Origin: Alphaproteobacteria bacterium
GTDB lineage: Bacteria; Pseudomonadota; Alphaproteobacteria; JAPYRI01
Length of the DNA: 35,848 bases
Assembly: GCA_029941135.1 (NCBI GenBank)
Contig: JAPYRI010000024.1
Location: forward strand, 1-35,848
Reading direction: 5' to 3'
Shown in pieces: positions 1 to 2,176 of this stretch (within the stretch, counting starts at the first letter, position 1; the number at the start of each line of letters is the position of its first letter). The notes beneath the pieces are model-generated. The model was not told the origin of the DNA. It did no database searches and saw nothing but the letters and a program-made list of their open reading frames with translations. The position numbers and the translations under genes are program-made.

Positions 1-724
1 GTTCGTCATTTACGTAAATGCGAAGCGCTTGGAAACTTCGTGTGGCGGGATGGATTTTTTGCGCCTGCCGTCCTGATCGGCCGATAGCGCCTCCAATGAT
101 GCCTGCCAGCTCAAGGGTCCCCGTAATCGACTTGCTTTTCCGGGCGGCAACAATGGCTCGGGCGATGCGGCGGGACTTCCGTTCGTCGCCGAAATTGAAT
201 AACACGTCGGCCAAGGCCTCTTCTTCGAGGCTATTGACGATATCAGCGGCGCTCGGTCCAGCAGCAGCGTCCGGCCCATCCATGCGCATGTCGAGGGGGC
301 CATCGAAGCGAAATGAAAATCCGCGAGCCGGATTGTCTAATTGAAATGATGAAACGCCAAGGTCAAGAGTAATGCCCTGCACTTCCTCAATGCCCTCCCG
401 TCCGAGGAGGTGCTCCATCTCTGAAAAATTGCCGTGAAGTACGCGTAGCCGGCCTTCATACTTCGCTTCAAGATCACGGGCCCGCGCGACCGCATCCGGA
501 TCCCGGTCAATGCCCCAAACCGTACAATTCGCCGCCTCCAAAATAGCCCGGCTGTACCCGCCGCCACCAAACGTAGCGTCGACCAACACGGCTCCTTCTC
601 CGAGCGCCAGGGCATCGAGCACTTCATCCAGCATGACCGGTATGTGCCCACGGGCGGATGCAAAGATATCCGTTGGATGCGGTCCATCCAGAGGATGATC
701 AGAACGGTCGTTACCGTCGCCCAT
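1..724 (-). CDS. rsmH: 16S rRNA (cytosine-1402-N4)-methyltransferase RsmH, N-terminal part (cut by window edge)
   Basis: SAM-dependent methyltransferase that adds the N4-methyl group to C1402 of 16S rRNA. The reading frame is open from the ATG at 724-722 to the window edge, giving about 241 residues of a protein that is usually 300-330 long. Visible motifs are HIPVML near residue 27, the SAM-binding stretch [10 protein letters not shown] near 50, a GIDRDP acidic loop, [10 protein letters not shown], and [14 protein letters not shown] followed by [15 protein letters not shown]. All are typical of the RsmH family. The start overlaps the mraZ stop by one base (TAATG), so the two are translationally coupled at the head of a division/cell-wall cluster that continues off the left edge. 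Only the C-terminal end is missing. Confidence 0.95.
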
Positions 725-1194: not shown

Positions 1195-1267
1195 TGCGGC
1201 CCCAAACAATTGAAGTTAAGCCGCCCCTCCCCGCGGACGCATTGGAAAGCGCCTCTTTGTCTCGGTT

Positions 1268-1312
1268 TGGGACGATATGGGATATCATGGGATTTAATGG
1301 GGGTCAATGGGT
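1268..1312. promoter_or_regulatory. MraZ box: five TGGG repeats with a 10-base period
   Basis: TGGGA occurs at 1268, 1278 and 1288, TGGGG at 1298 and TGGGT at 1308, each separated by five bases. Direct TGGGN repeats spaced by five bases are the known MraZ operator, usually three or four copies. Here there are five. They read TGGG on the plus strand, whereas mraZ itself is on the minus strand. The position 75-120 bases before the mraZ start fits self-repression. Confidence 0.85.
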
Positions 1313-1649
1313 TTAGATAGTAATAATAAAGGACTACCTGGGGTTAGCCGCCTCTTCGCCGGGTAAAAAACAACTTCCGATAACCGAACTGGATGTCACT
1401 CGGACCGTACCTGCTGGGGACCGACGCCGCGTCCAAGGTCGTGTCGGTTCCTGGTGGAGAAGAATAAGTAATTATTTTCAAACGGTTACAAATATTCCCG
1501 ATCCGCAGTTGAGCCAGCGGCAGTGAATTTTGTCAGCAAACCCGACAAGCTCGCCAGTTCCGTTTCACACCATCTGACCGGTCCGTAAGCGCCGATAGAT
1601 AGTATTGGCGAAATTATGGTTTAATTATGGCGGTCGGCTTAAAAGATAA

Positions 1650-1664
1650 GAACAAATATAGAAC
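1650..1664. promoter_or_regulatory. LexA-type SOS box (GAAC-N7-GAAC)
   Basis: The sequence GAAC-AAATATA-GAAC (GTTC-N7-GTTC on the minus strand) is an exact match to the alphaproteobacterial LexA operator. It lies in an AT-rich stretch between rnpB and mraZ, about 440 bases before the mraZ start. Any transcript leaving it leftward would enter mraZ-rsmH; rightward it would be antisense to rnpB. The match is seen directly; its function is inferred. Confidence 0.6.
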
Positions 1665-1719
1665 ATTAAAACCCGGCTCCGAATCAAAGATTCCCAAGAA
1701 AAAGTGAAGGCGGCCGGTT

Positions 1720-1751: not shown

Positions 1752-2176
<425 letters not shown>

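Follow-up and report, generated by a model that had tools for sequence, protein, structure and literature searches.

A LexA box upstream of mraZ in Alphaproteobacteria: possible SOS control of the division and cell-wall cluster

Introduction

Division arrest upon DNA damage is known mainly through dedicated inhibitors, such as SulA, SidA and YneA. The Caulobacter proteins SidA and DidA are small membrane proteins acting on FtsW and FtsN, and SidA is SOS-induced (PMC4211646). A connection between LexA and mraZ has been described elsewhere: Escherichia coli mraZ was reported to have three SOS boxes (PMC3265435), and a mraZ-linked metagenomic site from gut Firmicutes bound Bacillus subtilis LexA in vitro in EMSA (PMC3998124). 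When MraZ was overproduced in E. coli, the cells became severely elongated and died (Eraso 2014, as cited in PMC4446571). In Rhodobacteraceae, the abundant RNA UpsM is produced from the long mraZ leader, where the only promoter lies 268 nt from mraZ (PMC5089854). A study of the Caulobacter SOS response limited its search for LexA boxes to the 200 bp preceding each gene (PMC12700426), a range exceeded by the usual distance of the mraZ boxes described below.

Here, we analyzed a 35,848-nucleotide stretch of an alphaproteobacterial genome (contig JAPYRI010000024.1, hereafter the window), in which a first-pass annotation had pointed to a LexA box between rnpB and mraZ and proposed SOS control of the head of the division cluster or, alternatively, an SOS-induced small peptide or RNA.

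Materials and methods

The comparative sample comprised 385 genomes of Alphaproteobacteria, all from orders other than that of the host. MraZ was found in 316 of them (best identity 52%), and in 127 of these the sequence preceding mraZ was read over as much as 900 bp. Sites in the host genome (3.02 Mb, 178 contigs) were ranked by a matrix trained on the mraZ-upstream boxes of other genomes, the host genome being left out.

Results

The LexA box and its surroundings

Features of the locus are listed in Table 1. The exact GAAC-N7-GAAC sequence reported between rnpB and mraZ is indeed present and is the only copy in the window, where 1.34 matches would be expected by chance on the basis of shuffled sequence; in the sense of mraZ, it reads GTTCTATATTTGTTC (GTTC-N7-GTTC). 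The whole genome contained 70 matches to this pattern versus 101 for the reversed control pattern. With about one chance match per window and no genome-wide enrichment, the bare motif proves nothing, and significance from the pattern alone was ruled out. The LexA-box sequence is real, and what makes it remarkable is comparison rather than pattern.

Table 1 Features of the window around the LexA box
Feature	Position	Strand	Basis or remark
rsmH (mraW)	1..724	-	PF01795; truncated by contig end
mraZ, 156 aa	724..1194	-	Pfam PF02381 (3e-19) and NCBIfam MraZ; ATG at 1194
mraZ upstream region and leader	1195..1649	-	No recognisable gene, RNA family or terminator
MraZ operator	1268..1311	-	CCCAT-type repeats, 10-bp spacing; overlaps mraZ promoter; operator expected for MraZ
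mraZ promoter	1279..1307	-	-35 TTGACC (1307-1302), 17-bp spacer, -10 TATCCC (1284-1279)
LexA operator GAACAAATATAGAAC	1650..1664	+	Predicted; pattern, matrix score, comparison across the class
rnpB, RNase P RNA class A	1753..2173	-	RF00010, 316 bits

Both rnpB and mraZ are read leftward, and the box lies 88 bp from the 3' end of rnpB and 455 bp from the ATG of mraZ; the distance of ∼440 bases given previously had been counted from an upstream TTG. The remaining part of rsmH opens another contig (C49). Next on that contig come an ORF without a Pfam match, taken as ftsL-like from its position, and an ORF reading as FtsI, an arrangement that places mraZ at the head of a dcw cluster. No ORF longer than 45 aa and no Rfam family at threshold were found in the rnpB–mraZ interval, and the mraZ leader of the window showed neither a terminator nor a significant or unusual fold. 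The statement that no other leftward gene separates the box from mraZ was thus upheld. A 26-codon frame (MAVGLKDKNKYRTLKPGSESKIPKKK) at 1627-1707 (+) overlaps the box, with no evident ribosome site.

The mraZ promoter had been overlooked in the first-pass annotation. Its -35 element is located 113 bp from the gene and 342 bp from the box, and the same promoter arrangement is common to the other 60 of 61 genomes measured. A TTGAC-CCCAT-CCCATGATATCCCAT layout recurs across Alphaproteobacteria. The matrix scan revealed no second LexA site near the mraZ promoter of the window.

SOS sites in the host genome

A single lexA gene, with both DNA-binding and S24 domains, was found in the host genome, and its own box, GAACCAAACTAGAAC, is immediately upstream of it, on the lexA -10. 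Most of the 70 genomic matches fall within ORFs and have G+C-rich cores. A+T-cored matches outside genes or at a gene edge occurred at ssb/uvrA, imuA-imuB, a PA0069-family radical-SAM gene, lexA and the window site (ImuA scored under the NCBIfam curated cut-off, but an ImuB-like frame comes next). The highest scores were obtained for the radical-SAM (30.9), uvrA/ssb (28.7) and imuA (28.1) sites, followed by the window box in fourth place (26.5), while the lexA box scored 17.9; these first four are the intergenic sites that combine an A+T core with a score in the range of SOS operators. Scores over 10 were reached by 20 matches in the real sequence versus 8 in the reversed control, one of the latter at 25.0. 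The site therefore resembles alphaproteobacterial LexA operators in its GTTC-N7-GTTC direct repeat, in the presence of a two-domain LexA with an autoregulatory box, in a core and flanks scoring like the SOS operators of the same genome and in its conservation at orthologous genes, the last of these at class level and in orders other than that of the host.

Several other sites were observed in the scan. The top site (L020:1537-1551) lies between the PA0069-family radical-SAM gene and a glycosyltransferase gene, and its position suggests that one or both of these genes may be under SOS control. An imperfect second LexA-like site (GAACAAATCAGAAAC) follows the lexA operator and precedes the start of that gene (L079:2623-2637), and another LexA-like site (GAACATTTAGCGAAC) lies ahead of a gene resembling UMP kinase (pyrH; L049:1528-1542).

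Conservation across Alphaproteobacteria

A perfect box within 600 bp upstream of mraZ was identified in 65 of 105 LexA-bearing genomes versus 5 of 19 LexA-negative genomes, and the reversed pattern in 2 of 127. The five carriers without LexA are all fragmented draft assemblies, and for four of them the same sample includes LexA-positive members of the family; direct search of the five assemblies revealed no lexA. The boxes are also restricted in position: among LexA-bearing genomes, 64 of 104 had one between -480 and -180 and none of 104 between -900 and -600. For eight control repeats matched in base composition, the count was 0–3 genomes each; dinucleotide-shuffled sequences yielded 2 genomes on average and never more than 6, versus the 65 observed. 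By the matrix, a site was present upstream of mraZ in 78 of 105 LexA-bearing genomes (74%) and in no shuffled sequence at the same threshold; because those very sites went into the matrix, this figure serves as a summary and not as an independent test. The other 27 LexA-bearing genomes had no match. The metagenome-assembled genome of Proteobacteria bacterium B35T3L14 (L113) is one example, with a box at -275. Thus, scanning of orthologous mraZ upstream regions, as proposed in the first-pass annotation, showed that the box recurs in the class and tracks the presence of lexA; its absence from relatives, which would have spoken against SOS control, is not seen at class level, and relatives of the same order are absent from the sample. 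On the basis of these sequence comparisons, we suggest that the LexA box upstream of mraZ in most LexA-bearing Alphaproteobacteria sampled may represent an ancient link, so far little noticed, from DNA damage to the head of the division genes.

Some genomes have two boxes upstream of mraZ, or three half-sites 11 bp apart, as in L171 and L142 (GTTC-N7-GTTC-N7-GTTC). In addition, the 8-base element GCCnYATT is over-represented at ∼23 bp beyond forward boxes, where a single 4-bp bin contained 8 occurrences compared with an average of 0.18. It is kept over several families (for example, L088, L105 and L156).

Which gene the box serves

Across 61 genomes belonging to 35 families, the distance between the box and the mraZ -35 element shows a cluster at 138–142 bp, which comprises about 16 of the families (jitter p about 6e-4), and the best 5-bp window contained 37% of families versus 20% after 15-bp jitter. 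The corresponding values were 18% for the -35 to ATG distance and 10% for the rnpB to box distance, the latter having an interquartile range of 113 bp. A weak signal of helical phasing between box and promoter (vector 0.36–0.37 near 10.5–10.75 bp) follows from the 138–142 bp cluster. Within a genus of 11 genomes, the alignment was conserved from the box to mraZ and lost upstream of the box, where the contents vary. In two very small genomes the box is at -103, ∼20 bp from a TTGACT. The constrained spacing to the mraZ -35 and the free spacing to rnpB point to mraZ as the likely target, so that the box probably belongs to mraZ and not to rnpB. Since it stays with mraZ, a role as antisense to rnpB was ruled out.

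The same measurements bear on whether LexA could act as a roadblock or insulator, blocking transcripts that run from rnpB or another upstream gene into mraZ until damage opens the gate. Such an arrangement would require no promoter at the box, and rnpB is co-directional and 35–335 bp upstream in many genomes. However, among LexA-bearing genomes the box is found not only in 48 of 70 with rnpB upstream but also in 17 of 35 without it, and a roadblock would leave the fixed distance to the mraZ -35 unexplained. We consider this explanation quite unlikely.

It should be noted that the window copy departs from the class pattern, being reversed and located at the largest of the 61 measured distances from the -35, and confidence is lower for this organism in particular. 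This unusual spacing and orientation, together with the chance rate given above, would fit a match, fortuitous or belonging to the 26-codon frame, that has no connection with the conserved boxes. Yet a site with this high matrix score and genomic rank, at an orthologous position where about three-fourths of LexA-bearing relatives carry one, is hard to reconcile with coincidence, and the frame has no recognisable start signal for ribosomes; we regard this as very improbable.

Architecture at the box

Boxes of lexA itself were used as controls, and all seven cover the -10 of a TTGACN-N17-TAGAAC promoter, in which TAGAAC is the -10 and a half-site at once. In contrast, the mraZ boxes lie far upstream with no recognisable promoter overlapping them: around 56 such boxes, the only promoter recurrent in position was that of mraZ, ∼165–180 bp further on, in the same test that the lexA boxes pass. 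A lexA-like promoter at the mraZ box was thus ruled out, and the operator appears to be promoter-distal. A LexA operator with no promoter beneath it is an unusual layout that counts against SOS control of mraZ, although we treat overlap between a box and the promoter it controls as the usual layout and not as a condition for LexA binding.

One way to account for such a box would be a separate short transcript, either a small RNA or a SidA-like peptide, between it and mraZ. This is in line with the UpsM precedent, in which a small RNA is made from a 268-nt mraZ leader (PMC5089854), and the GCCnYATT element beyond forward boxes may also be compatible with it. Arguing against it, no conserved promoter was found at the box, and the leader of the window showed no significant fold, terminator or ORF. 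Moreover, the consensus fold of the genus alignment reached only -1.9 kcal/mol with one two-sided change, and lengths within the genus vary by 1–2 bases, which excludes a shared frame. A small RNA in the leader (no Rfam match, terminator or fold) and a short peptide of the SidA type (no conserved ORF) were each rejected as candidates. The peptide or RNA alternative raised initially thus found no conserved ORF, structure or promoter at the box, and a short transcript of any kind seems unlikely.

Discussion

Our data favor the view, to which we assign a probability of roughly 0.6, that the box is a genuine LexA operator of mraZ and the dcw cluster dating from an early alphaproteobacterium. Operator identity, class-wide conservation, association with lexA, a constrained distance to the mraZ promoter and the absence of a recognisable promoter, ORF or RNA at the box were computed; from these we infer LexA binding, the sign of its effect, action over a distance (by a loop, or by contact with MraZ or RNA polymerase) and an effect on division. 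LexA bound well upstream of the promoter would most likely lower mraZ transcription, and DNA damage, through RecA-stimulated cleavage of LexA, would raise MraZ. MraZ is annotated as a repressor of its own cluster and is toxic in excess in E. coli, so a rise after damage would repress the division and cell-wall genes and brake division. SOS control of mraZ is thus likely judging from sequence, and the original proposal for the cluster head is well supported at class level by box recurrence, lexA tracking and promoter spacing.

The direction of the effect might also be the opposite. LexA has been described as an activator in Rhodobacter, and a remote upstream position fits an activator as well as a repressor; damage would then lower transcription of mraZ and the dcw cluster. 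However, almost every known LexA site is one of repression, and activation appears improbable. LexA may tentatively be pictured as acting on mraZ from a distance, ∼140 bp upstream of the -35, looping to or cooperating with the MraZ operator or RNA polymerase, which would amount to a two-repressor damage control of the division cluster; we think this specific mechanism possible but doubtful.

An operator kept across many families would add to the known inhibitors a transcriptional route that reaches the division and cell-wall cluster as a whole. It would also provide a physiological trigger for MraZ, the role of which is under debate. If true, such a distant class-wide operator would have been missed by surveys confined to 200 bp upstream. 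The Caulobacter SOS literature examined makes no mention of mraZ, one study in it having that limit (PMC12700426), and our literature search found no alphaproteobacterial LexA box at mraZ; central older regulon studies were outside this search, and we make no claim of priority.

Compared with known systems, the mraZ boxes are similar to Caulobacter SOS operators (PMC12700426) in half-sites, spacing and A+T-rich core. One frequent form of the mraZ box, GAACATAACAAGAAC, is complementary to GTTCttgttatGTTC, which acts as operator for two SOS genes of Caulobacter (PMC12700426). SidA and DidA (PMC4211646) share the link between damage and division, but no such protein is recognisable at the window site. 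UpsM of R. sphaeroides (PMC5089854) likewise involves a regulatory element ∼270 bp upstream of mraZ in an alphaproteobacterium; unlike UpsM, the window has a nearer promoter, at 113 bp, and no terminator, fold signal or other sign of an RNA, and does not belong with UpsM-type leader RNAs. The E. coli and gut Firmicutes cases come from other phyla or classes with other LexA motifs, and we found no description there of a promoter-distal, distance-constrained layout, but in both of them LexA is tied to mraZ at the head of the dcw cluster, as here.
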